A stretch of 44,181 nt of DNA from a bacterium (GTDB lineage: Bacteria > Bacteroidota > Bacteroidia > Flavobacteriales_D > Sanyastnellaceae). The stretch's first letter is position 1, and each line of letters begins with the position of its first letter. The DNA lies in NCBI GenBank assembly GCA_029979565.1, contig JAPOHG010000012.1, positions 1-44,181 on the forward strand, in the 5' to 3' direction. The position numbers were made by a program, and so were the translations under genes. Positions 91-29,457 of this stretch are shown here, in pieces. The notes beneath the pieces were generated by a model. That model saw nothing but the letters and a program-made list of their open reading frames with translations, had not been told where the DNA came from and did not search any database.

Positions 91-98
91 TACCTTCG
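91..98 (+). promoter_or_regulatory. -7 promoter box, 4 nt before ATG
   Basis: TACCTTCG differs from the Bacteroidota -7 consensus TAnnTTTG at one position and is followed by CGCC and the ATG at 103. With the box centred near -7 the transcript would begin at or within a base or two of the start codon. Confidence 0.45.
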
Positions 99-102
99 CG
101 CC

Positions 103-1065
103 ATGGAAAGCAAGCAGGTCAAGGCGGATACGCCGTTGCTGGAATTTTTGATGGAACACGGTCAGTACTCAACACGTACCCGTGCCCGAACAGCCATCAA
201 GACAGGTGCCGTCACGGTCGATGGTGAGGTGCTCAAAATCCCTTCCGCCGACTTGAAGGCAGGCCAAACTGTGACATGGCAGTCGCTTGCTGCCCGCAAA
301 AGCATCAAAGATTTTGACCTCGCTGGAAGTGCATCCGATCGCGCGAAAGCCTCGAAAGCGCCCTACGAAGTGGTGTACGAGGATGAGAACATCTTGGCCT
401 ACATCAAGCCAGCAGGCATGGTGTTTGCCTCCCCGAAGCCACAGGTGAAGACGTCGTTCACGGCCATGAAACTGTGGATGACCAAAGCTCGGCCCAAATG
501 CGAGTGCATTCAATTTGTCAACCGCATTGAGAAAGAATCTTCGGGCATCAGCATCATTGCCAAAAACCTGGTTTGGCGAAAGCACCTCCAAGACCAGTGG
601 CAGCATTTCCAGCGCCGCATGTATGTATTGGTGGAGGGGCACTTGCCGGCGGACGACGTTCTGTTCTGTTTCGATCAAGAAGAGGGAAAGAAGAAGCGAA
701 CAAAACACGAATTTGCCTACCGAACGATGCGTGCCACCCCAGCGCATACCCTATTGAAAATGGAAGCGGGCTTCGAGCACGTGCCGTTGCTCATGAGTGG
801 CCTGCGCCGCCAGCAGTGCCTTTTGATCGGAAAGGGCAAGGAGATGCCTGACCCACTTGGGCGCAGCGGCCTCCATCTATTTGGTGTGGACTTGGTGGGA
901 CCAGATGGGGAAGTAATCAACGTCAAGTCCCGCGTCCCTCAGCCGTTCTTGAACCTCATGAAAGGTGGGAAGGGCCCCAAAGCGGAGCCTAACTGGAAGC
1001 GCAAGCAACTCGAAGGAGTGCAACGCGAACGTTCGCCACGTGGGAAACAAAAAAGGCACCGGTAG
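103..1065 (+). CDS. RluA-family pseudouridine synthase-like protein with altered catalytic motif
   Basis: 320 aa. The N-terminus (about residues 10-60) looks like an S4 RNA-binding domain; residues about 88-290 resemble the RluA/RsuA pseudouridine synthase fold, which isomerises uridine in rRNA or tRNA. The family's catalytic motif HRLDxxTSG is here NRIEKESSG at residues 140-148: the catalytic Asp is Glu143 (codon GAG at 529-531) and the His is Asn140. The C-terminal stretch LHLFGVDLVGPDGE matches the usual LHAxxLxFxHPxTG region only loosely. The tail is rich in Lys/Arg, consistent with RNA binding. The start follows a -7 box at 91-98. The protein may be a catalytically weakened or inactive RNA-binding paralogue; family assignment is firm, activity is not. 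Confidence 0.8.
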   Translation: MESKQVKADTPLLEFLMEHGQYSTRTRARTAIKTGAVTVDGEVLKIPSADLKAGQTVTWQSLAARKSIKDFDLAGSASDRAKASKAPYEVVYEDENILAYIKPAGMVFASPKPQVKTSFTAMKLWMTKARPKCECIQFVNRIEKESSGISIIAKNLVWRKHLQDQWQHFQRRMYVLVEGHLPADDVLFCFDQEEGKKKRTKHEFAYRTMRATPAHTLLKMEAGFEHVPLLMSGLRRQQCLLIGKGKEMPDPLGRSGLHLFGVDLVGPDGEVINVKSRVPQPFLNLMKGGKGPKAEPNWKRKQLEGVQRERSPRGKQKRHR

Positions 1066-1076
1066 TGGGTGCCTTT
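1049..1076 (-). terminator. Hairpin terminator, best oriented for the minus strand
   Basis: AAAGGCACC (1052-1060) pairs perfectly with GGTGCCTTT (1068-1076), with a 7-nt loop that contains the stop codon of the pseudouridine synthase-like gene. Read on the minus strand the stem ends in a run of six T (1054-1049); read on the plus strand only three T follow. It could work in both directions but fits a transcript coming from the 1091-1276 side better. Confidence 0.6.
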
Positions 1077-1090
1077 ACACGTTTAGAATT

Positions 1091-1276
1091 TCAGAGTTGG
1101 TACCGGTTCTCGAGCCAGTCTCGGAGCTCAATGGACTCCTTGGGGCTCAAATTGCGGAAGGCGATTCGCATCGCTCTTCGGATCATCACCGGCTCCGCAT
1201 GCACGTGGCGAATGAGCGTTTTGTATTGCTCGAGTGCGCTTGGTGAGTGCATTATGGGGATACCTGTGATCGACAT
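1091..1276 (-). CDS. Possible small protein, 61 aa, unknown function
   Basis: A 61-residue basic reading frame starting ATG at 1276 and ending TGA at 1091. The C-terminal half (RRAMRIAFRNLSPKESIEL) looks like two amphipathic helices; there is no signal peptide, membrane segment or recognisable motif. The argument for a gene is position: it lies in an otherwise empty 490-bp gap, and a hairpin whose T-run faces it follows its stop by 14 nt. Against it: no -7 box is visible upstream of 1276, and a frame of this length can arise by chance. A second ATG (residue 9) is an alternative start. Confidence 0.35.
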   Translation of the reverse strand: MSITGIPIMHSPSALEQYKTLIRHVHAEPVMIRRAMRIAFRNLSPKESIELRDWLENRYQL

Positions 1277-1392
1277 GAGAACGTGTTGTAAGAATCGTGG
1301 TCTTCCTACGGCATCAGGCCAGCATTTGTTGCAGTTCAGCCCGAGTTTTTTGAGCTGGGTAAGTCTAACTCGTTGAATACCATTTAAAAAGA

Positions 1393-3509: not shown

Positions 3510-4668
3510 AACTGGACTTGTGTGCGGCCAAGTCCCGCAGCACGGGGCTGGGGCGGTAGCGGTCATCCCCGTAGCGGATTTGCAGGCTCTCCAATACGTT
3601 CAACGTTGCTTTAGCGCCCCATTCGTTGCACCAGGCAAGCAGGCCTTTGGGGTAGTTCACGCCTTTGGTCATGGCTGTTTCCAAGTCTGCAGGAGATGCG
3701 ATGTTGAGGTAACATGCGTCCGCTGCTTCGTTGATGAGCATGGCGACTATGCGCTCCACAATCCAATCGAATTGGTTGGGGTCAATGGATGCTTCGCCGG
3801 CCGCTTGCCCTTCGGCATATGTGTAATAGCCCTTGCCTGATTTGCGCCCGAGCCACCCCGCATCGACGTGTTGTTTTTGAATCAAGCTCGGCCGGTACCG
3901 CGGATCGTTGTAAAATGCCTCAAAGACCGAGCATGACACGGCGTAGTTGACGTCATTTCCGATCAGGTCCATCAATTCAAACGGACCCATTCGAAACCCG
4001 GTACTGCGCATGGCCGCATCGATGGTCTCTCGGGAGGCCAATCCTTCCTCGAAAATCCGCAACGCTTCGCCATAGAACGGCCGCGCCACCCGATTGACAA
4101 TGAAGCCAGGCGTGTCTTTGGTGACAACAGGGGACTTGCCCCAAGCGTCCATCATGGACTTGGCCCGGTCCACATGCGCAGCATCGGTTTGCAGAGCAGG
4201 GATAACTTCAACCAAGGCCATCAAGGGGGCAGGGTTGAAGAAGTGCAATCCCATGAAGCGTTCCGGGTGCTGCAGCTTGCCGGCGATGGCGGTGACACTC
4301 AGTGAGGAGGTGTTGGTGGCGAGAACAGCTTCAGGTGCGACGATTGTTTCCAAGGATTGAAAAAGCGATTGCTTCACGCCGAGGTCCTCCACGATGGCTT
4401 CGATCACCCAATCGCATGCCGCCAACGAATCGAGAGCCGTTGTGCGGTCAATGGCGGATTGGATGCGTTCACTATCGGCAGCGGACCACTTGCCCTTTTC
4501 CACCAGTCGCGCAGCAACCTTTGCTAAGGAGGCCTCACTCCCCTCCAACGCTGATTCCTTTTGATCAACCAAAACGACGGCATGACCTGCCTGTGCCGCG
4601 AGTTGAGCAATGCCCGAACCCATGGCTCCAGCTCCCACGATGCCAATGGTGGACGTTCCTGTTTCCAT
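3499..4668 (-). CDS. 3-hydroxyacyl-CoA dehydrogenase
   Basis: 389 aa from the chosen ATG at 4668. It oxidises 3-hydroxyacyl-CoA to 3-ketoacyl-CoA with NAD+. The Rossmann motif GIVGAGAMGSGIA begins at residue 8; the substrate-binding segment LHFFNPAPLMALVEVI and the signature TPGFIVNRVARP follow; residues about 190-285 are the first C-terminal 3HCDH domain and about 300-385 a second one. This two-domain form is larger than the 280-residue Hbd type and resembles PaaH-like proteins. An upstream in-frame ATG at 4695 would add nine residues (MPEKYELRP), but start 4668 puts the glycine motif at the usual distance and has a partial -7 box (4673-4680) 4 nt before it. It acts one step before the neighbouring thiolase. 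Confidence 0.93.
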   Translation of the reverse strand: METGTSTIGIVGAGAMGSGIAQLAAQAGHAVVLVDQKESALEGSEASLAKVAARLVEKGKWSAADSERIQSAIDRTTALDSLAACDWVIEAIVEDLGVKQSLFQSLETIVAPEAVLATNTSSLSVTAIAGKLQHPERFMGLHFFNPAPLMALVEVIPALQTDAAHVDRAKSMMDAWGKSPVVTKDTPGFIVNRVARPFYGEALRIFEEGLASRETIDAAMRSTGFRMGPFELMDLIGNDVNYAVSCSVFEAFYNDPRYRPSLIQKQHVDAGWLGRKSGKGYYTYAEGQAAGEASIDPNQFDWIVERIVAMLINEAADACYLNIASPADLETAMTKGVNYPKGLLAWCNEWGAKATLNVLESLQIRYGDDRYRPSPVLRDLAAHKSSFTL

Positions 4669-4672: not shown

Positions 4673-4680
4673 CGAAGTTC
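4673..4680 (-). promoter_or_regulatory. Weak -7 box for the dehydrogenase gene
   Basis: On the minus strand GAACTTCG (two mismatches to TAnnTTTG) is followed by TCCC and the ATG at 4668. The 4-nt spacing and the TCCC-ATG junction are the same as for the helicase gene at 7235. Confidence 0.25.
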
Positions 4681-4681: not shown

Positions 4682-4689
4682 TACTTTTC
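4682..4689 (+). promoter_or_regulatory. -7 box of the purine nucleoside phosphorylase gene
   Basis: TACTTTTC has one mismatch to TAnnTTTG and ends 4 nt before the ATG at 4694, predicting a leaderless transcript. Confidence 0.4.
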
Positions 4690-5591: not shown

Positions 5592-5996
5592 ATGTTCAGA
5601 ATCAAATCCCACCGGTGCAAGGAATGCGGTGACCGATTGAACGGCCGCAGCGACAAGTTGTTTTGCGATGACGGGTGCCGGGTTAGGCACCATCGAAAAT
5701 CCAATTCCCTGCATGCTTTGAAACGTGGCGTCGATCATGTGCTGCAGCGCAATCGGTCGTTGTTGGCGGCCCTCCGCAAATCAACGTTTGCGGGGTACAA
5801 TGCCGAAGACCGGGCCTTTTGGCTCCGTCGGCAGGGGTTTGATTTCAATTTTCACACGCATGTATTGCCTTTAAAGGATGGTCGCCTCGCTATCATGTGC
5901 TACGATGAAGGTTATGTCCTGGATGGGGATGGTATTTTGCCGTGGAAGGATACCAGCCGGAGCTCCGGTTCATTGGCGCCGCGTTCGCTTTCCTGA
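5592..5996 (+). CDS. Conserved zinc-ribbon protein, unknown function
   Basis: 134 aa from the ATG at 5592, just after the terminator of the preceding gene. Residues 9-35 hold a treble-clef or ribbon-like metal site: CKECG, then FCDDGCR about 16 residues on, followed by basic RHHRK. Short proteins with this CxxCG...FCsxxCR arrangement are common in Bacteroidota and may bind nucleic acid, but I know of no defined function. The middle (about 45-70) is probably helical, and the C-terminus (HTHVLPLKDGRLAIMCYDEGY) has alternating hydrophobic residues suggesting a small beta sheet. It overlaps the convergent helicase gene by 27 bp. Confidence 0.75.
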   Translation: MFRIKSHRCKECGDRLNGRSDKLFCDDGCRVRHHRKSNSLHALKRGVDHVLQRNRSLLAALRKSTFAGYNAEDRAFWLRRQGFDFNFHTHVLPLKDGRLAIMCYDEGYVLDGDGILPWKDTSRSSGSLAPRSLS

Positions 5997-7235
5997 CTTG
6001 CGCTTCTTTTCGTGAAAAGCGCCTTTGTAATTGGGGTCGCGTTTTCGCAATTCGCGGTCAATTTCGCGGGCTTGGTTTTGCTTTTCTCTTTGGGGAGTTT
6101 CAAAAGGTTCCAATTCTGGAGCATCCGTGAATTCCAACAAGGCTTCCCCGGTAAGGGTTTCAATCCTTTCCATTGCGAATTTTTCAGCGGGATCCACCAA
6201 AGTGAGCGCGGACCCTTCGCGGAAGGCGCGTCCTGTTCTTCCGATGCGGTGAATGTAATCGTGCGGGTCGCGTGGAACTGAAGCATTGATGACCCATTGG
6301 GTTTCTGGAACGTCGATGCCCCGACTTGCGACATCGGTCGCGATCAGGATTTGCACTGCGCCCGACCTGAAATCTTGCATCGCATTGATGCGGGCATTTT
6401 GACCTTTGTTGCTGTGCACGGCTCGCACCCCGTTGTCAAATGACCGATCCAAGAACTTGAAGAGGTTCTCCGCCTCTTCTTTGCGCCGGGTGAAAATCAA
6501 CAAACGGTCATCACCCAACCGCTCTCGGACATACCACTCGATAAAGGCAATCTTGGTTCGAAGGTTGGGCAAGGCCAATTTGTATTGCGTGACCGTGGAT
6601 ACCGGTGTGCTTTCGGGTGTGACCTCAATGCGGGTGGGCCACAACAGGAATTCCTCGGCGAGCCGCTCTACACGCGGGGGAAAGGTGGCAGAAAACAAAA
6701 TGTTCTGTCGCTTTGTGGGCACGACTTCTTGAACCTGCCGAATTTGCGGCATGAACCCCATGTCCATCATGCGGTCCGCCTCATCCAACACGATGTGCTT
6801 GAGCTTCTTGGTTTCCACATACCCACGGGAATAGATTTCCAGGAACCGTCCAGGCGTGGACACAATCAAATCCACGCCGCCTGCGATTTCTTCGATTTGC
6901 TTTTTCGGCCCTACGCCTCCATAAAACGCAACGATGCGCAGGTCCGTGTAACGGGCAAATTTCAAGGCCTCTTGGTGGATTTGAACGACCAGCTCTTTGG
7001 TGGGTGCGAGAACCAAGCCTCTCGGGGCTTCTCCTTGCGCGAACTTCAGGGTCTGCAGCATAGGGAGCAAAAATGCTGCAGTCTTGCCCGTTCCAGTTTG
7101 AGCGATGCCAATGACATCTTGACCTGCACGAAGCGGTGGAATCGCCTTTTGCTGAATTGGTGTGGCGCTTTCGTACCCCGCGTCGGCTATGGCGTTTAAG
7201 AACTGCCTTGTCAGCTTGAGGTCTTCAAATCGCAT
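5970..7235 (-). CDS. DEAD-box ATP-dependent RNA helicase (RhlE-like)
   Basis: 421 aa. All helicase motifs are present in order: Q motif (GYESATPIQ), I (AQTGTGKT), Ia (PTKELV), Ib (STPGR), II (DEAD), III (SAT), IV (LIFTRR), V (ATDVASRGID), VI (HRIGRTGR). The C-terminus is short, Lys/Arg-rich and without an extra RNA-binding domain, as in RhlE-type proteins that help ribosome assembly or mRNA decay. The ATG at 7235 gives the normal RhlE-like N-terminus MRFEDLKL and is preceded by a perfect -7 box at 4 nt spacing. Divergent from the acyltransferase gene across a 36-bp gap that contains a 19-bp palindrome. Confidence 0.96.
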   Translation of the reverse strand: MRFEDLKLTRQFLNAIADAGYESATPIQQKAIPPLRAGQDVIGIAQTGTGKTAAFLLPMLQTLKFAQGEAPRGLVLAPTKELVVQIHQEALKFARYTDLRIVAFYGGVGPKKQIEEIAGGVDLIVSTPGRFLEIYSRGYVETKKLKHIVLDEADRMMDMGFMPQIRQVQEVVPTKRQNILFSATFPPRVERLAEEFLLWPTRIEVTPESTPVSTVTQYKLALPNLRTKIAFIEWYVRERLGDDRLLIFTRRKEEAENLFKFLDRSFDNGVRAVHSNKGQNARINAMQDFRSGAVQILIATDVASRGIDVPETQWVINASVPRDPHDYIHRIGRTGRAFREGSALTLVDPAEKFAMERIETLTGEALLEFTDAPELEPFETPQREKQNQAREIDRELRKRDPNYKGAFHEKKRKSGKRTRRQ

Positions 7236-7239: not shown

Positions 7240-7247
7240 CAAATTTA
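7240..7247 (-). promoter_or_regulatory. -7 box of the helicase gene
   Basis: TAAATTTG on the minus strand, a perfect TAnnTTTG, followed by TCCC and the ATG at 7235. The transcript should start at or next to the start codon. Confidence 0.6.
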
Positions 7248-7271: not shown

Positions 7272-8441
7272 ATGGAGGATACTTTTGCGCATATGCGTCC
7301 GTATTTGGATCACGAGGTTCCTGAAGCCATCGCGTGCTTGGTCGGTGCGCTCGATTGGGAATCACACCTTGGTCCCTTTATCGGAGAGAAGCACGCTTCG
7401 GATCTGCTGAATGGCATACGAGATCTTCAAAGTGTAGAGGCCTTCCAGGAAAACCTTTCACGGGTATTCATCGACCTTCTGCTTCAGCGAACATCAGAGG
7501 ATGTTACGGTTTCTTTTGATTCGGACATTGAGGGCCACGGCGCCCTCTTTATTTCGAACCATCGTGACATTGTGCTCGACCCGTCCCTCATCAACATGGC
7601 GTTGCTTTCCCGAGGAGAGTCGACCACTCAAATTGGAATTGGCAGCAACCTCCTGCAAACCGAGTGGGTCGAGAATCTGGTTCGGCTCAACAAAAGTTTC
7701 ATCGTGCGAAGGGGTGGAACACCCCGGGAACAACTGATGGCAAGTGCGGAAGTCGCACAGTATGTGCGCCACGTTATCACAGAGCAAAACGCTTCCGTTT
7801 GGTTGGCGCAGCGCGAAGGCCGTGCCAAAGATGGAGACGATCGGACGTCGCCTGCATTGATTCGAATGCTGCTCAACGGCGAAGACGGAGCTTCGTGGAA
7901 TCGCCTCAAGGTGCAACCCGTCAGTTTGAGTTACGAGTGGGATCCATGCGACGGCATGAAGGTTCGGGAATTGTTGATTCGGGACGAGAACGACGGAGAA
8001 TACATGAAAGCCGCAGGAGAGGACGAACGCAGCATGAAGCAAGGGTTGTTCGGTTGGAAAGGGCGAATCCACGTCGCTTTTTGCAACCCCCTTGCTTGGG
8101 AAGAGCCGCCTGAAGGAGTTCGTCCAGCAGCTCATTTGGCTGCTCGGGTGGATCAGGTGTTGCACGAAGCCATGCGCACATGGCCTTGTCAACATTGGGC
8201 AGCTCGCGAGTGGATGCGACTCAAGGGAGACAGAGCCTCCCACTGGCCGAGCGACTGGACCCCCGATGCTGTGGATGCTCAGGTTGAACAAGCGTGTGAA
8301 AAACGCATCCGTACCATCGCAGGATCATTGGCTGATTTAAACGCCAGCGACGAAGCGGTTCGATTGAAGTGGTGTGAGATCACCATGAATCCGCTTATCA
8401 ATGCGGTCCTTGCCGAAAGGGCATCATCGGTGACAGCCTAA
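7272..8441 (+). CDS. Glycerol-phosphate acyltransferase-like protein
   Basis: 389 aa. It belongs to the PlsC/LPLAT acyltransferase superfamily, which moves an acyl chain to glycerol-phosphate lipids or related acceptors at the inner membrane. Block I is ISNHRDIVLDPS around residue 95; the GPAT-like block with VRRGG follows near 142; and AQREGRAKDG near 178 takes the place of the family's PEGTR block. This Bacteroidota subfamily has NHRD rather than the usual NHxxxxD spacing. The rest is soluble with no clear membrane span, so it would act as a peripheral enzyme. The exact acceptor is unknown; phospholipid or ornithine-lipid synthesis are both possible. An internal ATG at residue 8 is an alternative start. 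Confidence 0.8.
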   Translation: MEDTFAHMRPYLDHEVPEAIACLVGALDWESHLGPFIGEKHASDLLNGIRDLQSVEAFQENLSRVFIDLLLQRTSEDVTVSFDSDIEGHGALFISNHRDIVLDPSLINMALLSRGESTTQIGIGSNLLQTEWVENLVRLNKSFIVRRGGTPREQLMASAEVAQYVRHVITEQNASVWLAQREGRAKDGDDRTSPALIRMLLNGEDGASWNRLKVQPVSLSYEWDPCDGMKVRELLIRDENDGEYMKAAGEDERSMKQGLFGWKGRIHVAFCNPLAWEEPPEGVRPAAHLAARVDQVLHEAMRTWPCQHWAAREWMRLKGDRASHWPSDWTPDAVDAQVEQACEKRIRTIAGSLADLNASDEAVRLKWCEITMNPLINAVLAERASSVTA

Positions 8442-8453: not shown

Positions 8454-9203
8454 TCACTTGCCCGTCTTCACGCGTGCAATTTCAGAACAGACAATGGCAG
8501 AAGCCACGCCGGCGTTGAGTGACTCTGCTGCACCTACACGTGGAATGTGGACCGCAATCGAAGACGAAGGCAATTCCACTTCTTCAAAGCCATGGGATTC
8601 CGATCCTACCCATATCCAACCGCTTTCCCAACTCATTTCGGAATGAGGTGTACCGTGCATTTCAAGGTGACAATGACCGGACAACCCGTGCAGAAAATCA
8701 AAGGAGACTTCCACGATTGGAATCCGGAAGATGGATCCCATGGAAGCTTGAACCGTTTTGGCATTCCAGGGGTCGACCGTTCCCTCGGTGATGAGCACTC
8801 CTCCGAATCCAAACCAATCCGCTGAACGGATGAGCGTACCTAAATTTCCAGGGTCTTGTATTCGGCAGCCGATCAATCCGTACTGCATAGGCGATTCGTG
8901 AACAGTGCGGACTACATAATCTGCTGAAAGGTCAGGTATCTTGGCCAAAGCGAGCAATCCGGGTGCGGTGTTCATTTGCGAGATGCGCCCCATTTCCTTA
9001 ACAGAGATTTGCTCGGCGAGGAAACGATGTGAATCGGGCACCGCATGTTCCATGGTAGAGACGTAGTACATTCGTTCCACTTCAATGGAGCTCGCAACCA
9101 ATTCTGCCACGCCTTTGTCGCCTTCGACAACAAACCGCTTCTGCTCGGAGCGCTCCGTCTTCCTGCGCAAAGCGCGAATGGCGTTGAGGGTGGTTTTGTC
9201 CAT
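8454..9203 (-). CDS. TrmH/SpoU-family RNA 2'-O-methyltransferase
   Basis: 249 aa. It should methylate the 2'-O of a ribose in tRNA or 23S rRNA using SAM and the trefoil-knot fold. Motif 1 is IQDPGNLGTLIRSADWFG (about 117-134), motif 2 VGSESHGF (about 197-204), motif 3 IPRVGAAESLNAGVASAI (about 218-235), close to the canonical IPMxGxxESLNVSVAxxI. The N-terminal 90 residues form the small substrate-binding domain, with the usual FVVEGDKGVAELV segment. The ATG at 9203 fits family starts. It shares a CATG with the divergent outer-membrane gene, so both start codons overlap by two bases. Target nucleotide cannot be told. Confidence 0.92.
   Translation of the reverse strand: MDKTTLNAIRALRRKTERSEQKRFVVEGDKGVAELVASSIEVERMYYVSTMEHAVPDSHRFLAEQISVKEMGRISQMNTAPGLLALAKIPDLSADYVVRTVHESPMQYGLIGCRIQDPGNLGTLIRSADWFGFGGVLITEGTVDPWNAKTVQASMGSIFRIPIVEVSFDFLHGLSGHCHLEMHGTPHSEMSWESGWIWVGSESHGFEEVELPSSSIAVHIPRVGAAESLNAGVASAIVCSEIARVKTGK
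9191..9198 (+). promoter_or_regulatory. Possible -7 box of the outer-membrane protein gene
   Basis: TGGTTTTG (one mismatch to TAnnTTTG) lies 3 nt before the ATG at 9202 and inside the opposite-strand methyltransferase gene. Confidence 0.3.
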
Positions 9204-11469
9204 GAAGCCTAATTTTCCTTTGCAAAGCTATGCGATATGTGCGTTGGCCATGTTTTCCGCATGTTCGCCTGCTCGTCGATTGGGAGAAGGAGAGAAGTTC
9301 CTCGAACGGGTTGAAATCAAATCGCCCGACGGCTCATCGCTACCGAACTCAGGTGTGTATGCAGATGTGTTGCGGCAACGGGCCAACACCCGCCTATTGG
9401 GTGTTCGACTCCCCATGCAGATTCATCTCCTTGTTCGACCGGAAGCGATTGCTCGTGCCCAACAAAAAAGGCGGGAGAAGGGCAAATCCGAGGGCGGGAT
9501 TCGTTGGTGGTTGGCCAATCGAATGGGAGAGCCGCCCGTGGTTTATGATGCTTACTTGGCGGAACGATCACGCTTGAATTTGACTGCATTTGCCCAGCAA
9601 ATGGGCTACCTCGACGCGGTATGCACCTTGGACATTGACACGGCTGATGCAAGGCGGGCCAGCCTTGTCTATGGTCTTGACCTCGGAGCGGTCTGGACCA
9701 TTCAATCTTGCAACTGGGCAACCGAAGGGAGCGGGTTGGACACAGGGCTATTGGATTTTGCGCCAGCCAGTCTGATCGGTGCGCCTTTTGACGTCCGTCA
9801 GCTAGAGGCAACCCGCAGTTCCATTGCAGGCGTATTTCGAAATCGGGGATACCCGTCTGTTCAGGCCTCTCACGTTGCTTTCGTTGCGGATACCTTGGGC
9901 AAGGCAAACGAGCGACATGTGGCGTTGACCATTGAATTATTGCCCTTCGATTACACGAATGAAGGAATGCCAATTTCGCACCAATTGACGCGGTTCGGAA
10001 ATGCAGCCTGGTCGTGCAATGAAGGACTGGATGGCAAAGTTCCTTGCATTGATTCGGAGGTGGTGGATTTTTTAATTGCCGTTGATTCGGGCATGCTCTT
10101 CAATGAGCGGGTGTTGGCTGACACCTACAGACGACTGTCCAACGTGCCCGGCGTAAGTCGAATTGAAATGCCGGGAACCATGCGAGTTCAAGACGCTGAG
10201 GTGGCCTTCTACGATGTGGATGTCGCCTTGGAATTGGAGAAGCGCTTCGAATTGTCAGCTGAAGCGCAAATGATACGCAGCGATGCCCGTTACGGCCCAA
10301 TCGGGAGCATTGGCCTTCGAAATAACAACCTGCGTGGGGTGGCCGATGCATTCGAAATCGCTTTGACAGGCGGAGTTGTTTCCACTCGGCCATTCAGTTA
10401 CACCGGTGACGCCTTGGTTCCGAACAGCGGAACGTGGTCCATTTCGAGCACATATTCAACCTTGGGGATACCGCCGTTATCGCTCAACCGTTTGCGTCCA
10501 TCGAATCAAGCCCGAACGGAGTTCAAATTGAATTGGGGAAGGGAAGTTCGTCCAGAATACGCCAGGCAATCTGCTTCATTTTCCTACGGCTTCAGCTACA
10601 TTGAAAACCCGGAAAAGGAAAGCAAGCTTCAGGTCACACCGTTCGAGTTTCGGTACTCTGACATCACAGCTGACTCCGAATTTGCAGCTTGGCTCACCCA
10701 ACAAGCGAATCCCGTACTCGAAGGCCGCTTTGTGGATTACACCTCGCTCGCTTCGAAACTCAGTTGGAGTTCGAAATGGGAGGAAAACCGTGCCGGTGGT
10801 CGTTGGCGGTTGGACGCCGAATGGACCGGGATGGGATTGAGCATGCTTGCAGCTCCATTGGGGCTGAGACAGGGGGACGGGGAGGCCTACTTGCTGGGTG
10901 GCATTCCGTTTGCGCACTATGTGCGAGGTGCTGGGGAATGGACCATGGGGCAATCGTGGGGCAGGACGGGTTCGCTTCACGCCAGGATCAAAGCAGGCTT
11001 TGCAACGGTCGGATCGAACATGGAGGTGCTTCCTTTCGACCGGGCATTCTTCGCTGGTGGTGCCAACGGCGTTCGGGGCTGGTCCGTGCGGGACCTGGGT
11101 CCAGGCTTTGCCAAACAAGATGTCTTGGATGCGGGTTATGTCCCGGGCGTAGGGGATGTTCAATTGGATGTGGGTGTTGAAATCCGCAAGTCATTGACGG
11201 ATGCTTTTGGCGCGGCTTGGTTTACCGATGCAGGCAATGTTTGGATACACCAGAACGGCGGTTTATCCCCTTCGGAGGCCACTGCTTTCTCGGTTCGCTC
11301 CGTGGCTTGGGGTGGAGGATTGGGACTCCGATTTGATTTCGAATTTTTTCTCTTGCGGCTGGATGGCGCATTGCGAGTGCATGATCCATCTCAGGAGCCG
11401 GGTCAGCGATGGATTGGACAAGGGCAGCCGAGAGGAATGGTGCATTTGGGAATCGGCCACCCTTTTTGA
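9202..11469 (+). CDS. BamA/TamA-family outer-membrane lipoprotein
   Basis: 755 aa from the ATG at 9202. The N-terminus [21 protein letters not shown] is a lipoprotein signal ending at a lipobox-like FSAC. Residues about 35-390 contain POTRA-like repeats; the remainder is a 16-strand-type Omp85 beta barrel. The diagnostic Omp85 segment [17 protein letters not shown] (VRG motif, with LGP after it) is near residues 617-633, and the protein ends in a Phe (GIGHPF), as expected of a beta-signal. Omp85 proteins insert or transport proteins across the outer membrane. Many Bacteroidota encode such a lipid-anchored TamA-like protein next to a TrmH-type methyltransferase. Its partners are not known from the sequence. 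Confidence 0.9.
9223..9230 (-). promoter_or_regulatory. -7 box of the TrmH-type gene
   Basis: TAGCTTTG on the minus strand is a perfect TAnnTTTG, 19 nt before the ATG at 9203. It lies within the signal-peptide codons of the divergent outer-membrane lipoprotein gene. Confidence 0.5.
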
Positions 11470-21147: not shown

Positions 21148-21512
21148 CCGGCTGTGGCAATCAGCCGAAACGGCAAGTCGATGATGGCGTCGTAGTCTTC
21201 ACCGGCTTCGAGCATGTCCTCGTCTTCTTCTTCATAATACCATAGAACCGTTGCCTCCGCAGGTGATTGTTCAACGCGTTTGAGCAAATCCATTAGACAC
21301 TTACTGCTGCTGGTATTGAAGTATTCCAGTCGGATGGACACTTCAAGGGACCCGCCTCCTTTCAAATGCTCATCCACCCAATCCAAAAGCGGGGTGTAAA
21401 AAGCGATGGAATTTTCAGGTATGGACCGTCCTGAAATTTCCATGGACAAAGGAGCATCATGGAATGCGACACGGGGCGTTTTAACGGTGCCTTCAAGTTG
21501 AATGGTGCTCAT
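21144..21512 (-). CDS. siaC: SiaC-like regulatory phosphoprotein (DUF1987)
   Basis: 122 aa. It matches the SiaC family: PENSIAFYTPLLDWV near residue 32, LEYFNTSSSKCLMDLL near 62, and a C-terminal acidic region followed by LPFRL. In Pseudomonas aeruginosa SiaC is phosphorylated by SiaB on the Thr of an LNTSS motif and, when unphosphorylated, activates the diguanylate cyclase SiaD. The equivalent is Thr67 here. The start codon overlaps the stop of the upstream siaB-like gene in ATGA, implying translational coupling. No SiaA phosphatase or SiaD cyclase is in the window, so its output partner is unknown. Confidence 0.85.
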   Translation of the reverse strand: MSTIQLEGTVKTPRVAFHDAPLSMEISGRSIPENSIAFYTPLLDWVDEHLKGGGSLEVSIRLEYFNTSSSKCLMDLLKRVEQSPAEATVLWYYEEEDEDMLEAGEDYDAIIDLPFRLIATAG

Positions 21513-22057
21513 GATTGTAAGGGGATTTCTGCAGAAAAAGTAACGCAGGCTACTTCGGAGCGATTTTCAATGTTCATGTCCACTTGGCCATCGGCTTTTC
21601 GGAGAATTTCATTCAATCCTACACCGCCTCCGCCGTGTTCGCTTCTTGAATCACCTGCGAGCTTATCACGTTGCATGGAGCGGAGTTCATTTTGGCATTT
21701 GGACTTCAGTTTTGTCCAGGTTTCTTGCAACTCTTTCACACAGCGGTGATCAATGGCGTTGGACGCCTCGATGCGCCACGTGATTGAAGGAGTGGAGTAA
21801 ACGGCGAATTCAGGCTGGGTATCATGCACCAGCGCATGGTGATGCATGTTTTGCAGGAGTTCAATGGCAACGCGGATGATTCTTTTCTTCTGAAGTGAAT
21901 GAGCATCAACTGCTTCTAAACGCGATTCCATCCAGTGCATCAAAAAGTCTGTTGTTTGGTCTTGGATGCTGCCCTTCCATTTCAATTCCAAGGCATGCTG
22001 CTCCGTCGGAAGAAAACGAGCAGATGGGTGTGCATCGGAGGGGAACGTTCCGGACAT
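21509..22057 (-). CDS. siaB: SiaB-like protein kinase
   Basis: 182 aa. Related to the GHKL-type kinase SiaB, which phosphorylates SiaC. An N-box-like motif AIELLQNMHHHA (about 67-78) and a glycine motif GGGGVGLNEILRKA (about 141-154) mark the ATP-binding fold. The pairing with an overlapping siaC-like gene supports the assignment. The start at 22057 has a TTAATTTG box 4 nt upstream. It is divergent from the methyltransferase gene over 53 bp. Confidence 0.8.
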   Translation of the reverse strand: MSGTFPSDAHPSARFLPTEQHALELKWKGSIQDQTTDFLMHWMESRLEAVDAHSLQKKRIIRVAIELLQNMHHHALVHDTQPEFAVYSTPSITWRIEASNAIDHRCVKELQETWTKLKSKCQNELRSMQRDKLAGDSRSEHGGGGVGLNEILRKADGQVDMNIENRSEVACVTFSAEIPLQS

Positions 22058-22061: not shown

Positions 22062-22069
22062 CAAATTAA
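22062..22069 (-). promoter_or_regulatory. -7 box of the siaB-siaC operon
   Basis: TTAATTTG on the minus strand (one mismatch to TAnnTTTG), followed by ATTC and the ATG at 22057: again a 4-nt spacing. Confidence 0.4.
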
Positions 22070-23810: not shown

Positions 23811-23828
23811 AAAATTGGGGCTTTTTTT
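23801..23828 (+). terminator. Strong intrinsic terminator with GAAA loop
   Basis: CCTCAATT (23801-23808) pairs with AATTGGGG (23813-23820, one T-G wobble) around a GAAA tetraloop, followed by C and seven T (23822-23828). It ends the plus-strand transcript of the ZIP gene or of the micro-ORF, and its T-run reaches the stop codon of the convergent lyase gene. Confidence 0.85.
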
Positions 23829-24690
23829 ATCGGAACAAATCAACTGAGAATGCCTGTGCCTGGTTCCAAGCGCGCGGATTCAATTGAAGATCAGCATGCT
23901 TTTGGAGGAATGACACCAGCGTTTCAGTAGGCACATTGCCCACCAATTCATCTTGCGCCATGGGGCAACCTCCGATTCCGCCTAAAGCCCCATCAAATCG
24001 GCGGCATCCACCATCCCAGGCCGCTTGGATTTTGGAAGGGGAATCCCATGGAGTTGCGTGTAAATGGGCGCCAAGCGTTGCCCGAATACCGCCAACAGTT
24101 AGGGTAGAAAATACAGCGCGAAGCATGGAGGCATGCGCCTGGCCGGTGGTATCGCTCAGGGCAATGACCTCAGGCGACAGGTCTTCATCCACCTTGGCGA
24201 CCCAATCCATCAATAAGTTTACGTTCCAATCGTCACCGTAAGGATTGCCAAAGCCCATGCTCAAGTAAACAACCAATTTGCGGCCGCCAAAGTCAACAAT
24301 GTCGCGTATGCTGAGCAAGCGATCCCATGCTCGCTTTAAGTTAGCACCGGTATTTCGGATTTGAAACGTTTCTGAGATGCTCATGGGAAAGCCCACGTGT
24401 GTTACCCCGGGTGCGGCCACGGCGTCCTTAGCTCCTCGTTCATTGGCGACAATGACCAGAACATTCGTGCTGCTGGAAAAAAGGCCTTCATCTTCCAAGC
24501 GTTGTAAGACCTTTCGGGTGTCTTTCATTTGGGGTACCGCTTTGTGCGAAACAAAACTCCCCAGGTCCAGCGTGTGAAAGCCGACCTCCAATAAGCTTTT
24601 GTAGTAAGCAATCTTGTCTGCAGAGGAAACGGGACTGGGCCATCCTTGGATGGCGTCGCGCGGGCATTCGACAAGTTGGACCGTGGACAT
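23827..24690 (-). CDS. HMG-CoA lyase family protein
   Basis: 287 aa TIM-barrel protein of the DRE-TIM/HMGL family. It should cleave 3-hydroxy-3-methylglutaryl-CoA (or a similar substrate) to acetyl-CoA and acetoacetate, the last step of leucine breakdown. Motifs: ECPRDAIQ (8-15) with the catalytic Arg, the metal-binding HLH at about residue 209 (GAHLHAT) and the loop GGIGGCPMAQDELVGN (about 240-255) with the active-site Cys. The HxHD of true lyases is HLHA here. The ATG at 24690 follows a perfect -7 box by 4 nt. Confidence 0.88.
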   Translation of the reverse strand: MSTVQLVECPRDAIQGWPSPVSSADKIAYYKSLLEVGFHTLDLGSFVSHKAVPQMKDTRKVLQRLEDEGLFSSSTNVLVIVANERGAKDAVAAPGVTHVGFPMSISETFQIRNTGANLKRAWDRLLSIRDIVDFGGRKLVVYLSMGFGNPYGDDWNVNLLMDWVAKVDEDLSPEVIALSDTTGQAHASMLRAVFSTLTVGGIRATLGAHLHATPWDSPSKIQAAWDGGCRRFDGALGGIGGCPMAQDELVGNVPTETLVSFLQKHADLQLNPRAWNQAQAFSVDLFR

Positions 24691-24694: not shown

Positions 24695-24702
24695 CAAAGT
24701 TA
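24695..24702 (-). promoter_or_regulatory. -7 box of the lyase gene
   Basis: TAACTTTG on the minus strand, a perfect TAnnTTTG, followed by GATA and the ATG at 24690. A TTG at 24720-24718 lies 15 bp upstream of the box. Confidence 0.6.
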
Positions 24703-25033: not shown

Positions 25034-26800
25034 TCAATCCAGAATGGTCGGGCGCTCCCAGCGTGTTAAACGCATTGTGTCCTGTCCAAAACTGAATAGC
25101 ATAAGAGAGCCGTCCACTCGCTTCCAAGCGAAAGGGCGGCTTTTTAGCTTCCCAATGCCAGTATTTGCTGTTGGCGCAATGGCCCAAGTTTCCGATGACA
25201 GTGCCGCAATTGGCCGAGGAAGAAGCGGTGGATTATGAGGTGGTGTGGTTCCAAATTTCGCGTGTTTGGCACTGAGCTGAATGCTATCACGACCGGCTGT
25301 AACCAACGACCCTGAGCAGCAGGTTGCTGCGTCCAATACCAGACCGTAGCGGTAACTCACCGCGGCTCGCGTATTCATTTGCCAACCAATCCATGGAAGC
25401 AATGCGGCACATAAACCACCATAGATGATGAGGAATTGGCGGCGTACAAATCGCCCTGCAACAGCCAAGGTTCCCCCAATGAGGAAGCCCAAACTCACGG
25501 CCATCAACAACGGCTTATCTACGGTTCTTAGGTCCCAGGTCCATGAACTGGAATGCCAGCTGTCGAATGGTTCGAGAATCACATGAATTGCCTGGTTGAC
25601 AACGTTGGTCACCAAGTTGGCGCATTCCTTCCAATCCAGAATGAACTCGGCACCGAGGGAGCTTGCGAATGCTGCGCCGAGAAAAGCCATGATTGGCGAG
25701 GCAATCCAATTGAATAAAAGAAAGAACTTGGGAAACACCCCAAATGTGGGCCAAGCAATGCATCCGGTTCCGACTTGAGCTGCAATCGGCACAATGAAGT
25801 ACACCATGAGCGGGTGCCTGTTTTGGCTGCCCTTGACCAATTGAATTCCCAGCAGGATGGCATAGACGGCCACAAAACTGAGTTGCATACCAAGATCCCG
25901 AGCCCACATGGGGTTGTAAATCAACATGCCCCACGCGGCGATGCTCAACAACTGCATAGCAGACAGGTTCAGGCGCATCAACTGGGAAAGGCCATACCCG
26001 GTGATCATCAGTCCGGCCCGAACGGCGGAGATTGGGAATCCGCAATAGGCAATGAAGCTCCAAGTGATCAATATTCCGGTGAATCCCATGAGGCGAGTAC
26101 CTGTTCTTCGATGCCGGAGGAGCAGGAGGAATGGAAACGTAACCAATCCGACATGGTACCCGCTCACAGCCATTAGATGGGCGAGTCCAGCATGAGCAAG
26201 GCGGATTTTCAGCGATGCATCCAATTGTCGTTTTTCACCGCTGAATATGGCAAGCAGCAGGCCGGGAATCGGTCCGGTAAAGTGCGCTTGCAAGAATTTC
26301 CATAGCGGTTTGTCACGGCCCGTGTTTACATGCGAATCCAAAGGAGATTGAGCGACAGGCATTGTGCTGCGAATGGCACCGTGTAGTCCTTTGCTGTGAT
26401 TGAATTGTCGCCAAGCATTTCCCCGAAAGGGCCACAGTGTGCCGAGAAATGATACCCTCAACGGCGATGAATCAGAAGCTTCTACCGTGTAAACATGGCC
26501 CATGGCATCGACGCAATCGAGGTAATGACGCTCACGGCCGCCTCCATCCCGGGAATTGCAGGTCCAAATGGACGTCTTGGGTGCAACGACGGGAGGATTG
26601 AAGGCGCATTGAATGGAACATCCGGTCCAGCCCAAGGCGTAAAGGGCCGCCACATACCAAGCATCCCTGCGTGCTTTGGGCTGCCGCAGAAGACAGGGAA
26701 GCACCACAACCAAGGGGATGGTTATCGGCCATTGCATGCACCCGAGCCACAAGGCCAACGCAAACTTGGCAACTGGTGATTGGAATGGAGGGACGTCCAC
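25034..26800 (-). CDS. comEC: ComEC/Rec2-family competence protein
   Basis: 588 aa, start GTG at 26800. ComEC forms the inner-membrane channel for single-stranded DNA in natural transformation. The N-terminus has spans followed by an OB-like extracytoplasmic region; the competence domain starts near residue 210 with AHLMAVSGYHVGLVTFP, the family hallmark, and contains some ten spans. The C-terminal metallo-beta-lactamase domain of larger ComEC proteins is absent, as is usual in Bacteroidota. No ATG lies near the proposed start, and a CAATTTTG box 4 nt upstream supports GTG. It follows the GT2 gene by 76 bp on the same strand. Confidence 0.9.
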   Translation of the reverse strand: MDVPPFQSPVAKFALALWLGCMQWPITIPLVVVLPCLLRQPKARRDAWYVAALYALGWTGCSIQCAFNPPVVAPKTSIWTCNSRDGGGRERHYLDCVDAMGHVYTVEASDSSPLRVSFLGTLWPFRGNAWRQFNHSKGLHGAIRSTMPVAQSPLDSHVNTGRDKPLWKFLQAHFTGPIPGLLLAIFSGEKRQLDASLKIRLAHAGLAHLMAVSGYHVGLVTFPFLLLLRHRRTGTRLMGFTGILITWSFIAYCGFPISAVRAGLMITGYGLSQLMRLNLSAMQLLSIAAWGMLIYNPMWARDLGMQLSFVAVYAILLGIQLVKGSQNRHPLMVYFIVPIAAQVGTGCIAWPTFGVFPKFFLLFNWIASPIMAFLGAAFASSLGAEFILDWKECANLVTNVVNQAIHVILEPFDSWHSSSWTWDLRTVDKPLLMAVSLGFLIGGTLAVAGRFVRRQFLIIYGGLCAALLPWIGWQMNTRAAVSYRYGLVLDAATCCSGSLVTAGRDSIQLSAKHAKFGTTPPHNPPLLPRPIAALSSETWAIAPTANTGIGKLKSRPFAWKRVDGSLMLFSFGQDTMRLTRWERPTILD

Positions 26801-26804: not shown

Positions 26805-26812
26805 CAAAATTG
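26805..26812 (-). promoter_or_regulatory. -7 box of comEC
   Basis: CAATTTTG on the minus strand (one mismatch to TAnnTTTG), followed by CGGG and the GTG start at 26800, the same 4-nt spacing as at several other genes. Confidence 0.4.
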
Positions 26813-26876: not shown

Positions 26877-27941
26877 TCAAAGGAAGCGATTCGGATTTAG
26901 CTGGCCGAAGGTGTGCTTTTTTCGGATGAAATAATCGATGATGATGCTGCCCTGGTACCGACCGGTTTGATTCGGCGTGCCTCGTCTGCGTTCCTTGCAG
27001 ACCTCGATTTCCTCCTTGCGACGTGCCTTCATGACGCTGAAGTGCTTCCAGAAATCCCGGTGGGCTTTCAAGACCGCTGCAAACAATGAGGTAGACCCTT
27101 CAATAAGAAATTTGAGTGCTGCAATGCCGTCCAGTACCATTCTTCGGATTAACATGGGGTACAATGCACGTTGGTGGTGGTTTTTCACCAGCATGTAGAG
27201 GTTGTTTCGAAAGTTCAAGTAGGATTTGAAAGGACTGATTTTCTGCAAGGTTCCTCCTCCTAAGTGGTAGACAATGGAATGTCCGCATGCACCAACCTTG
27301 TACCCCCTGTTTTTCAATCTCCAGCACAAATCAATTTCCTCCATATGAGCAAAGAAATCTTCGTCCAATCCACCGACTTCCCGCCACGCATCGGATGCGA
27401 TGAAAAGGGCCGCTCCAGAAGCCCAGAATACTTCGCGATTGGAATTGTATTGCCCTTCATCGGTTTCAAACACTTCGAAGATGCGTCCTGCGCAAAATGT
27501 GAAGCCGTCGCGATCGATGAAGCCTCCTGCGGCCCCCGCATATTCAAACAGTTCCGGATCGGTGTCGTTTCGAATCAGCGGTTGACAGGCAACATAACCC
27601 TCGTTTTCCATCATGTCCACAACCGGTTGAATCCAATTGGGAGAGGTGCGAACATCGCTGTTCAACAAAACAAATACCTCGGCGTTTACGCGAGCAAGTC
27701 CTGCATTGTACCCCCCGGCAAATCCCATATTTTTTTCCAACTCCACCACGTGCACATGGGGATGGTGTTGCTTCAGCCATTGCACGGAGTCATCGGTGCT
27801 GCCGTTATCAATCACAACTACATCGGCATCTTCGTTTGAATGTTCCACGACCGAAGGCAAATACGTGGCTAAATGGTGCCGACCATTCCAATTCAAAATG
27901 ACCACTGCTACCCGAGGTATGGCGTGTTCGGAAGTTGTCAT
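26877..27941 (-). CDS. Glycosyltransferase family 2, rhamnosyltransferase-like
   Basis: 354 aa. GT-A fold transferase using a nucleotide sugar, probably for surface polysaccharide or glycoprotein glycans. VVILNWNGRHHLATYLPSV (12-30) is the typical N-terminus, DNGSTDDS (about 46) and NMGFAGGYNAGL (about 70) bind the nucleotide, LNSDVR (about 93) is the DxD-like site, and the ALFIASDAWREVGGLDEDFF segment (about 175) is the acceptor-side signature of WbbL-like enzymes. The C-terminus is basic. Its start overlaps the stop of the GWxTD gene by 4 nt (ATGA), so they are co-translated. Confidence 0.93.
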   Translation of the reverse strand: MTTSEHAIPRVAVVILNWNGRHHLATYLPSVVEHSNEDADVVVIDNGSTDDSVQWLKQHHPHVHVVELEKNMGFAGGYNAGLARVNAEVFVLLNSDVRTSPNWIQPVVDMMENEGYVACQPLIRNDTDPELFEYAGAAGGFIDRDGFTFCAGRIFEVFETDEGQYNSNREVFWASGAALFIASDAWREVGGLDEDFFAHMEEIDLCWRLKNRGYKVGACGHSIVYHLGGGTLQKISPFKSYLNFRNNLYMLVKNHHQRALYPMLIRRMVLDGIAALKFLIEGSTSLFAAVLKAHRDFWKHFSVMKARRKEEIEVCKERRRGTPNQTGRYQGSIIIDYFIRKKHTFGQLNPNRFL

Positions 27942-29425
27942 CGTGGATTGAAAAAGAGGTCTTCCGGTTCTTCTCCTGAAAACGTATCACGGCGTGGGTT
28001 CAATCGATTCAGCTGGCTGCTGGTCACGCGCAAACGATTCTCCCTGCTGCGTAGAATCTGCAACCAGTCGGTATTGGAAACTTCACCAAGCATGTCTGAA
28101 TGCAGGAGGGTGAAGCATTCGTTGACCATGTGGGGAGAGAAGAAGAGAAAACGCTTGTTTGTGAACGGTCCGGCACGATGATAATGCCAGATTTCGTAGG
28201 GATAGTAGTCGGTTTCGTTGTGACGCTTTACAATGGTGTTGGGAGGTCCATACCGCAAATAGATGTACCCCATGTCCGTTTCCGCACCGTGCCCTTGCCT
28301 GCAGGCCCCATACGCCGAATCTGCATATGCAATAGCCGTGGTATATGCACGCCAACCCGCTTCAGGATCATCGGGCGATTGTTGCTCCCAGAAGTAAGCG
28401 AGAAACGCCTGCATCTGAGAAACACTGGCTTCCGTTATGAATCCATCAATGGTTTTGCGCTGGGATGCATCGGCTTTGGGATGGTGGTCACGGATGTGTT
28501 GAACCAAGGTCAGGGAATCGGTGAATCCCTCGATATAAGCGGGGAGGACACTTCCAAATTCGGCCAAGCCCATGTTGCTACTGGGAGCAATGAATTGAAG
28601 GGGCAGCGAATTCTCGGTGATGAGTTCGTTGTTGCGCGTCAACGCCTGCACAACAAGCCTCGCTCGCTGTGTTTCCTGCACATCTACAAGCGGAATGGAG
28701 GTAAAAACCGGTAGCACAGGCGCGGCCTCTTTGCGAAAAAATCGCCGGGTTGACGGGATGATGGTGCCCTCATCCGTTTCTAACCAGCACTGGACCAGAA
28801 ACAAGGAGTCGACGACCTCATTTACACGATAGAGTTCGGTGTAGAATTGAAGTTTGCTTGCTTCGGTGGACAATGCTGCTTGAACGAGCGGCAGCATCTC
28901 GTAGCCTGAACGCGTCAGGTTCGTCGGCTCTCCATCCGCTGAAGGGGCAAACGCTTCCACGATGAAGGGATCAGAAAATCGAGGGGCGTCCGTTTCCAAA
29001 AATTCGATGGGAATGGTCGTCGTCTCCTCGAATGTTCCCACACCGCTCGCATCACGCAAGGTGACGGCGACGTTGAATATTCCTGTGGGCACAGCGATGC
29101 GCTCCAAGTGAAATTGACGACCGTCCAGAGCGGCAAGGGAATCTGTTCCCAGCGGGCCTTCGATGTTGGTTTTGCCGTAATTGACAATCCCTTCTGATGA
29201 TTCAACGACGGCCTCAATTTGCACACGTGTACGCCAGCCTTCGTCTGTTTGCAGGGCATGAAAGCTTCGACTTTCAAAATCCACGTGCACTTCAAGGAAA
29301 CCGGTTTCTTGGCTTTGGAACCGCAATACATCACAAGCGATGGACCCTTGGGCGAGTGAATGGCTGTATGCGAATCCACATGCCAATACCAAAAGCGCAG
29401 CGATTGTTCGTTTGCCAAAGTCCAT
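27938..29425 (-). CDS. GWxTD-domain secreted protein
   Basis: 495 aa from the ATG at 29425, which begins a clear signal peptide (MDFGKRTIAALLVLACGFAY) with likely cleavage after SLAQ. Residues about 25-330 look like beta-sandwich domains. The C-terminal region (about 370-470) fits the GWxTD domain, a Bacteroidota-specific family of unknown function: DMGYIYLRYGPPNTIV and YEIWHYHRAG are diagnostic, though the name-giving GWxTD is GAETD here. The chosen start is supported by a perfect -7 box at 4 nt; an upstream in-frame start would run into the promoter. It heads the operon with GT2. Confidence 0.85.
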   Translation of the reverse strand: MDFGKRTIAALLVLACGFAYSHSLAQGSIACDVLRFQSQETGFLEVHVDFESRSFHALQTDEGWRTRVQIEAVVESSEGIVNYGKTNIEGPLGTDSLAALDGRQFHLERIAVPTGIFNVAVTLRDASGVGTFEETTTIPIEFLETDAPRFSDPFIVEAFAPSADGEPTNLTRSGYEMLPLVQAALSTEASKLQFYTELYRVNEVVDSLFLVQCWLETDEGTIIPSTRRFFRKEAAPVLPVFTSIPLVDVQETQRARLVVQALTRNNELITENSLPLQFIAPSSNMGLAEFGSVLPAYIEGFTDSLTLVQHIRDHHPKADASQRKTIDGFITEASVSQMQAFLAYFWEQQSPDDPEAGWRAYTTAIAYADSAYGACRQGHGAETDMGYIYLRYGPPNTIVKRHNETDYYPYEIWHYHRAGPFTNKRFLFFSPHMVNECFTLLHSDMLGEVSNTDWLQILRSRENRLRVTSSQLNRLNPRRDTFSGEEPEDLFFNPR

Positions 29426-29429
29426 GGCA

Positions 29430-29457
29430 CAAAGGTATTCCCTTTCCGACATCACAA
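29430..29457 (-). promoter_or_regulatory. Promoter of the GWxTD operon
   Basis: Minus strand: TTG at 29457-29455, 17-bp spacer, perfect -7 box TACCTTTG (29437-29430), then TGCC and the ATG at 29425. This is the most complete of the predicted leaderless promoters. Confidence 0.65.

Follow-up and report, generated by a model that had tools for sequence, protein, structure and literature searches.

Sigma-A -7 boxes at a fixed spacing from start codons and predicted leaderless mRNAs in a Sanyastnellaceae genome (Bacteroidota)

-7 boxes beside start codons in the window

The window analysed here is a stretch of 44,181 nucleotides from a Sanyastnellaceae genome (contig JAPOHG010000012.1, positions 1 to 44,181), in which 30 genes were scored for TAnnTTTG, the Bacteroidota sigma-A -7 box. 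The total number of such boxes is at chance level (14 found versus 14.6 expected), and the non-random feature of the window is the position of the boxes, not their number. Against a background taken from a genome sample that includes the window, three perfect boxes at one spacing among the 30 genes have p ~5e-7, and seven boxes with at most one mismatch have p ~6e-11. All nine boxes listed in an earlier note on this DNA are in the sequence as described: perfect ones before 7235, 24690 and 29425, one-mismatch ones before 103, 4694, 22057 and 26800, a two-mismatch one before 4668, and one at 3 nt before 9202. Seven of the nine leaderless cases that the note had proposed hold or are plausible, and those at 4668 and 9202 are unsupported by orthologues.

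In the DEAD-box RNA helicase gene (5970-7235, minus strand), the ATG at 7235 is preceded at 4 nt by the perfect box TAAATTTG (7240..7247). The TAA of this box is an in-frame stop, so that no upstream start is possible for this gene. Of 15 orthologues, down to 55% identity, 14 have a perfect box at 4 nt and the remaining one has a box with a single mismatch there. Its divergent partner, an acyltransferase-like gene (7293 to 8441, plus strand), is an additional case absent from the earlier note, with the perfect box TACTTTTG (7280..7287) 5 nt before the ATG at 7293; its orthologues carry a one-mismatch box at 5 nt in 4/6 cases and a perfect one in 0/6. The hydroxymethylglutaryl-CoA lyase-like gene (23827-24690, minus strand) has the perfect box TAACTTTG (24695..24702) 4 nt before ATG 24690, again with TAA as an in-frame stop, and both box and spacing are retained in 11/11 of L043-L053. 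The third perfect box at this spacing, TACCTTTG (29430..29437, minus strand), precedes ATG 29425 of a GWxTD-domain protein gene (27938-29425); a box with at most one mismatch is found at 4 nt in 11/15 homologues at a credible start, the best-box start being picked among the in-frame starts.

Four genes have a one-mismatch box at 4 nt. On the plus strand, TACCTTCG (91..98) precedes ATG 103 of a gene (103-1065) for an RluA-like protein that has an S4 domain and scores below the curated RluA cut-off, and all three orthologues found have a one-mismatch box at equal spacing. TACTTTTC (4682..4689, plus strand) precedes ATG 4694 of a purine-nucleoside phosphorylase gene ending at 5518; this box is kept in G395 and G399 and absent in G403 and G045, the upstream region being cut off in G401 and the start not covered in G405, and the leaderless case is plausible only. 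TTAATTTG (22062..22069, minus strand) lies before ATG 22057 of a gene for a SiaB-like DUF6272 protein (21509-22057), with a one-mismatch box at 4 nt in 3/6 orthologues; it is alternatively readable as a 7-nt TAnTTTG. CAATTTTG (26805..26812, minus strand) precedes the GTG at 26800 of a ComEC-like gene (25034-26800). Our gene caller favoured 26737 as the start of this gene, a box with at most one mismatch occurs in one of the four orthologues scored, and the case is uncertain.

Two listed boxes are probably coincidental. For the two-mismatch box before ATG 4668 of a 3-hydroxyacyl-CoA dehydrogenase gene (4673..4680, minus strand), the four orthologues with the start covered show 3-5 mismatches at the 4-nt position. 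The one-mismatch box 3 nt before ATG 9202 (9191..9198, plus strand) corresponds to 2-6 mismatches at 3 nt in six orthologues, only two of which have an ATG aligned with this start. A perfect box, TAGCTTTG (9223..9230, minus strand), lies 19 nt before ATG 9203 of a TrmH/RlmB-like gene (8454-9203) and may be the promoter of this gene, which would then be an ordinary leadered one.

Spacing and promoter character across the genome

The earlier note had proposed a spacing histogram as a check, and when run on an 840-kb sample (43% of this genome) it gave a sharp peak: TAnnTTTG occurs exactly 4 nt upstream of ATG at 36 sites, versus ~5 per other spacing. Its width is a single nucleotide, apart from a small shoulder at 5 nt. 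The whole genome, compared at 4 and 2 nt before ATG, has 66 sites at the former spacing versus 5 at the latter. TAA or TAG falls within the box at 14 of the 36 raw sites as an in-frame stop, which excludes a start codon farther upstream. Gene starts were taken from a home-made caller (616 genes, 88% coverage), which replaced a first one (479 genes, 75% coverage) that already gave the peak, with a perfect box at 4 nt in 15/472 genes. A perfect box at 4 nt precedes 30 of 583 called genes (background 0.28; Poisson p ~1e-49) and a one-mismatch box another 34 (background 2.3). The claim that this fixed spacing is beyond chance persists with the window excluded (perfect box in 27/554 genes, at most one mismatch in 60/554). 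The 30 perfect-box genes look like a mixed housekeeping set, with three in the shikimate pathway and two having no Pfam match.

The box-gene class thus defined (perfect or one mismatch at 4 nt) comprises 64 genes, compared below with the 519 others, and starts with ATG in 59 cases, GTG in 5 and TTG in none. A peak 4 nt before GTG is seen in the 840-kb sample (10 versus about 2). Among 14 clade genomes GTG is not clearly enriched at 4 nt (176 GTG and 117 TTG versus 133 ATG at 2 nt), its 176 sites being below its own reversed-pattern control of 270. Other called genes show a second, broad box excess 9-50 nt upstream of their starts, in agreement with the two initiation modes suggested previously. 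About 12.5% of genes look leaderless, as does 39-43% of the signal from boxes lying up to 50 nt from starts. Fixed-position mixture (EM) modelling of the leaderless fraction was abandoned, as at control positions it converged on other composition signals, with fractions of 0.08-0.59.

The box genes carry further marks of a promoter. G at the free positions -10 and -9 is found in 2 and 0 of the 64 box genes versus 97 and 107 of the 519 others, both positions are G-free at 33/36 perfect 4-nt sites versus 71% of the 220 boxes that the sample contains, and A at -11 is kept by every one-mismatch box. Divergent position is overrepresented (38/62 box genes versus 144/495 others, p 1e-6). At -1, C is present in 86% of box genes versus 51% of others and G in 0/64; C at -1 was rejected as a special start signal, in-frame internal ATGs being likewise preceded by C in 53%. 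A -33 TTG at the expected spacing occurs in 5/64 box genes versus 14/519 others (p 0.047, uncorrected for multiple looks) and in 0/54 leadered promoters, and is at best a hint. 4-mers resembling Shine-Dalgarno (SD) sequences are not enriched between -20 and -4, being found in 8% of box genes and 8% of other genes, compared with 11% in a control stretch from the latter. Structure is reduced at gene beginnings in this genome. A search for the 16S 3' end in this incomplete MAG gave no match.

Conservation in relatives and in the phylum

Box, spacing and start are conserved together among orthologues down to 55% identity. In six relatives, a box with at most one mismatch lies at 4 nt in 21/34 orthologous starts of the flagged window genes versus 0/114 of unflagged ones, and in 14/26 versus 0/71 for pairs below 80% protein identity. 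Pooling 13 relatives yields 912 sites at 4 nt versus 128 at 2 nt. The phylum statistics cover 108 of 395 genomes, namely all 98 of the class (this one included) and 10 of family f25; among the 98 same-class genomes, sites at 4 nt outnumber those at 2 nt in 89, with p<1e-3 in 29 of these. The remaining 287 genomes, outside these statistics and inspected by eye, mostly have no clear 4-nt excess, and in family f18 the 4-nt sites are by eye often fewer than the control. Density per Mb is higher in this clade than in the comparators; the bootstrap intervals of the leaderless-promoter share overlap between the two, and a clade-specific share is not proved. Judged from these genomes, the present one is a strong example of a more widespread habit and does not represent a new system.

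Predicted leaderless initiation and its alternatives

The sequences show the box with its exact spacing and conservation, and the absence of SD enrichment; a transcription start on the start codon and the translation of leaderless messages are inferred. With high confidence, we propose that in many genes the housekeeping sigma-A -7 box occupies -12 to -5, counted from the start codon, and directs a leaderless mRNA. RNA polymerase would initiate on the A of ATG, or within one base of it, leaving no leader; ribosomes would accept such 5'-terminal AUG messages directly, and other genes would have leaders without an SD sequence. The predicted +1 on the A of ATG follows from Flavobacterium johnsoniae, where transcription starts 4 or 5 nt after the same box (PMC6847099). 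The peak coincides with this distance, which supports the transcription start at the start codon predicted in the earlier note.

Chance, meaning a short degenerate motif met near some of ~30 inspected genes, would fit the box total in the window and the coincidental look of 4668 and 9202, but is already refuted by the spacing histogram, with its peak in 840 kb, the whole genome and relatives; its probability is close to nil. It is very unlikely that the box is a promoter while translation begins at a later codon, behind a short leader, the ATG at +1 being incidental. Sequence cannot prove start codons, and the first codons align poorly in some homologues of the GWxTD family; however, an incidental ATG would give no peak at a single spacing, and box and ATG move jointly among the GWxTD homologues. 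Moreover, the box-adjacent start of the DEAD helicase aligns with residue 1 in 15/15 orthologues (ATG in 14, GTG in G045), and the conserved protein starts within a few residues of it.

Still less credible is TAnnTTTG as a translation signal in a leader, such as a U-rich ribosome-binding element. SD-lacking Bacteroidota do use other upstream signals, Kozak-like sequences, as described in PMC6847099. Against such a role stand the promoter consensus, including the near-absent G at the free positions and the A at -11 in all one-mismatch boxes, the concentration of the class at divergent genes, and the enrichment of the same box 9-50 nt from other starts too.

The proposed leaderless promoters resemble known promoters of the Bacteroidota primary sigma factor (sigma-ABfr), whose TAnnTTTG box lies at -12 to -5 (TAHHTTTG in F. 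johnsoniae), in the box, the near-absent G at free positions, the 4-5 nt to the inferred +1 and the indistinct -33. PMC6847099 reports that the -33 TTTG/TTG element is weak in F. johnsoniae too and that the primary sigma factor of Bacteroidota lacks region 1.1. Transcripts of F. johnsoniae, B. thetaiotaomicron and F. psychrophilum mostly have leaders (87% >10 nt, ~3.7% <10 nt, 5.5% leaderless), whereas here the leaderless position accounts for roughly two fifths of the signal from boxes up to 50 nt from starts. Leaderless genes of Actinobacteria and Deinococcus-Thermus have a Pribnow-like box near the start codon. They share with the present genes a fixed short box-start distance, mostly ATG starts and coexisting leadered genes, but belong to other phyla and have another -7 consensus, and the leadered genes here lack SD enrichment. 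SD-blind ribosomes of Bacteroidia are marked by a conserved anti-SD that is hidden by bS21/bS18/bS6. The Kozak-like SD-independent initiation of Bacteroidia likewise goes with no SD-like enrichment and reduced structure at gene beginnings; it acts via upstream context, which could not act in the mRNA of a box class that, as predicted, has no leader. The abundance of leaderless genes in Actinobacteria and Deinococcus-Thermus is documented in PMC3160421.

Leaderless initiation was previously considered rare in this phylum. Bacteroidota ribosomes do without SD pairing, leaderless messages were judged in F. johnsoniae too rare to account for initiation (PMC6847099), and experiments in other Bacteroidota found few leaderless mRNAs (3.7-13%). 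We tentatively suggest, as a possibility somewhat short of probable, that starting leaderless messages from the -7 box is a general second mode of initiation, hitherto underestimated, throughout Bacteroidia and in one or more further classes of the phylum. In this marine lineage and in related members of its order it would have become a main mode (~40% of box-type promoters), enabled by ribosomes that ignore the SD. A lineage in which the promoter box by itself appears to mark the start codon in roughly one of eight genes would be a natural system for leader-free initiation. For gene finders it carries a warning, as a sigma-A box beside an ATG would here signal a start, and gene starts and transcription starts may be predictable jointly from sequence.

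Spacing of the box relative to start codons

The source genome (1.96 Mb in 96 contigs, ~80% complete), of which the window is contig C3, has as its closest named relatives MAGs labelled Flavobacteriales or Crocinitomicaceae, as judged from one protein with 78-80% identity, which places it in the phylum Bacteroidota. All copies of the Bacteroidota sigma-A -7 promoter box TAnnTTTG and its variants that the earlier note listed are present at their places in the window. The TAnnTTTG box occurs 14 times on both strands of the window, which equals the shuffling expectation, and therefore a signal is only possible in its position relative to start codons. Given the genome's own background rate, finding three perfect boxes with the same spacing in 30 genes has a p-value of about 5e-7.

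The 4-nt peak that had been predicted for the genome-wide distance between box and start was found in an 840-kb sample comprising the window and 40 stretches (43% of the genome). With k as the number of bases between the box and the start codon, 36 TAnnTTTG-ATG sites have k=4, as compared with ~5 on average at other k in 0-40, and none of four control patterns peaks at k=4 in this sample. If the ATG must open a reading frame of 100 codons or more, 32 sites remain at k=4 and 8 at k=5, and the other spacings average ~2. Over the whole genome, 66 sites were counted at k=4, compared with 13 for the reversed pattern, and only 5 have k=2. For the 583 called genes with 150 nt of upstream sequence, 30 perfect and 34 one-mismatch boxes were observed at k=4 vs backgrounds of 0.28 and 2.3, respectively.

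Interpretation of the box as a promoter

According to excerpts of PMC6847099, the box of F. johnsoniae is located at -12 to -5, and a distance of 4 or 5 nt separates it from many predicted TSSs downstream. Because this spacing equals the box-to-ATG distance observed here (a peak at 4 nt with a shoulder at 5), transcription would start at the start codon, and the leaderless transcripts proposed in the earlier note stand as a prediction. The free box positions -10 and -9, which played no part in the selection of the 64 box genes, are nearly without G (2/64 box genes vs 97/519 other genes, and 0/64 vs 107/519, respectively), likewise in F. johnsoniae; G is absent from them in 33 of 36 perfect sites vs 71% of the sample's 220 boxes overall. 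Position -1 of the box genes is C in 86% and never G. As expected for promoters, the box genes are mostly in divergent position (38/62 vs 144/495 others, p 1e-6). A TTG near -33 provides a hint only (5/64 vs 14/519, p 0.047).

The box genes start with ATG (59), GTG (5) and never TTG. GTG codons at k=4 number 10 vs about 2 in the 840-kb sample; across 14 clade genomes they show no clear excess (176, below the 270 of the reversed-pattern control). No enrichment of SD-like 4-mers was seen upstream of starts.

After background subtraction, boxes with no more than one mismatch precede 12.5% of genes (95% interval 9.9-15.3) at k=4-5, and these positions hold 39% (31-48) of all such box signal within 50 nt, or 43% (31-56) for perfect boxes. 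The remaining signal is scattered across k=6-50, and therefore leadered and leaderless genes would coexist, in agreement with the suggested two modes of initiation. The 30 perfect-box genes have mixed functions, including SSB, TatC, LpxD-like protein, chorismate synthase, RNA methyltransferase and glycerol-3-phosphate dehydrogenase. Three of them belong to the shikimate pathway, namely DAHP synthase/chorismate mutase (L023:10914-12011), dehydroquinase II (L024:9016-9444) and chorismate synthase (L034:3714-4796), the L-numbers being sequence loci.

Conservation at individual genes

Comparison of 30 window genes, named by start-codon position, with six relatives identified a box with no more than one mismatch at 21/34 orthologous starts of seven flagged genes (103, 4694, 7235, 22057, 24690, 26800 and 29425) vs 0/114 for the other 23 genes; for pairs with <80% identity the counts are 14/26 vs 0/71. 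Judged by orthologue starts, the predictions for 103, 7235, 24690 and 29425 are well supported, that for 22057, whose box differs slightly, is supported, and those for 4694 and 26800 are plausible; the two further cases of the earlier note, 4668 and 9202, lack such support.

For the DEAD-box helicase gene 7235, 14 of 15 orthologues keep a perfect box at a distance of exactly 4 nt from the start, and the box of the fifteenth has one mismatch; in the more distant orthologues the sequence around the box differs. Among the 45 of 80 loci inspected by eye for the HMG-CoA lyase-like gene 24690, 11/11 loci L043-L053 show the same arrangement and L054 has it with one mismatch; beyond L054 it is mostly missing at the aligned start, except for a perfect copy in L077. 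For the GWxTD gene 29425, 11/15 homologues have a credible start with no more than one mismatch in the box at 4 nt, as scored by a script that picked the best box among in-frame starts. Gene 7293 (+) is an added case, with a perfect box at 5 nt and a one-mismatch box in 4/6 orthologues. Together with its divergent partner 7235 (-) it would form a compact two-way leaderless promoter region, with perfect boxes at 4 and 5 nt within 57 bp.

At the SiaB-like gene, the box (22062-22069) reads TTA[A/C/T]TTTG here and in three relatives, which fits TAnTTTG, one base shorter; a promoter class with a TA-TTG gap one base smaller is described for F. psychrophilum in excerpts of PMC9723704. Start codons of the divergent genes 4668 and 4694 are just 25 bp apart, and the relatives support one box at most (4694). 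A single CATG palindrome (9201-9204) is common to the called starts of divergent genes 9202 (+) and 9203 (-). In only 2/6 orthologues of 9202 does an ATG align with the called start, and therefore the true start of this gene may be elsewhere. Upstream of the tRNA-Ser gene (39250-39336), a perfect box TAAATTTG at 39346-39353 (-), 9 nt before the gene, is consistent with its promoter.

Distribution and extent of predicted leaderless genes

In the thirteen relatives whose genomes are behind the named loci, counts per genome range from 50 to 87 at k=4 and from 1 to 18 at k=2 (912 vs 128 when pooled), so that k=4 is in excess by 23-32 sites per Mb. Within the class (98 genomes including the source genome), k=4 exceeds k=2 in 89 genomes, 29 of them at p<1e-3, and the median excess per Mb is 5.8 vs 31 in the source genome. 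Within the order, sites exceed the reversed-pattern control in 74/80 genomes, 45 of them at p<1e-3. Families f1 (1464 vs 459) and f2 (2145 vs 797), with 17 genomes each, are rich in sites, and family f66 (421 vs 371, 6 genomes) is not. Family f25 of a distant class (e.g. genomes G144 and G381) has 393 sites at k=4 vs 78 at k=2 in 10 genomes; in 15 stretches of one f25 genome a perfect box at k=4 precedes just 2/203 genes. Sampled stretches of Brumimicrobium (6/291 genes) and Sediminibacterium (5/292) show a smaller peak, and genome G115 a strong one (13/295); the intervals of the leaderless share of the comparators overlap that of the source genome.

Leaderless mRNAs were reported to be few in studied Bacteroidota. 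Excerpts of the respective papers give ~3.7% of 5' UTRs <10 nt in B. thetaiotaomicron (PMC7366714), 5.5% leaderless in F. psychrophilum (PMC9723704), leaders <=10 nt in at most 13% in F. johnsoniae (PMC6847099), and leaderless genes in 1/37 Bacteroidetes/Chlorobi genomes in a Pribnow-box-based survey that itself warns of a possible underestimate (PMC3160421). Nucleotide biases led Nakagawa 2017 (PMC5397173, in excerpt) to suggest that mRNAs of Bacteroidetes could frequently lack leaders. A box peak at start codons is not described in excerpts of the literature combining TAnnTTTG and leaderless mRNAs, nor in related titles and abstract openings. The kind of transcript and the box are thus known, and the heavy, conserved use of the box in this lineage looks new. 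The reading in the earlier note was correct, and leaderless transcripts in this genome are a real, well-supported prediction from sequence, of ordinary mechanism and interesting extent.
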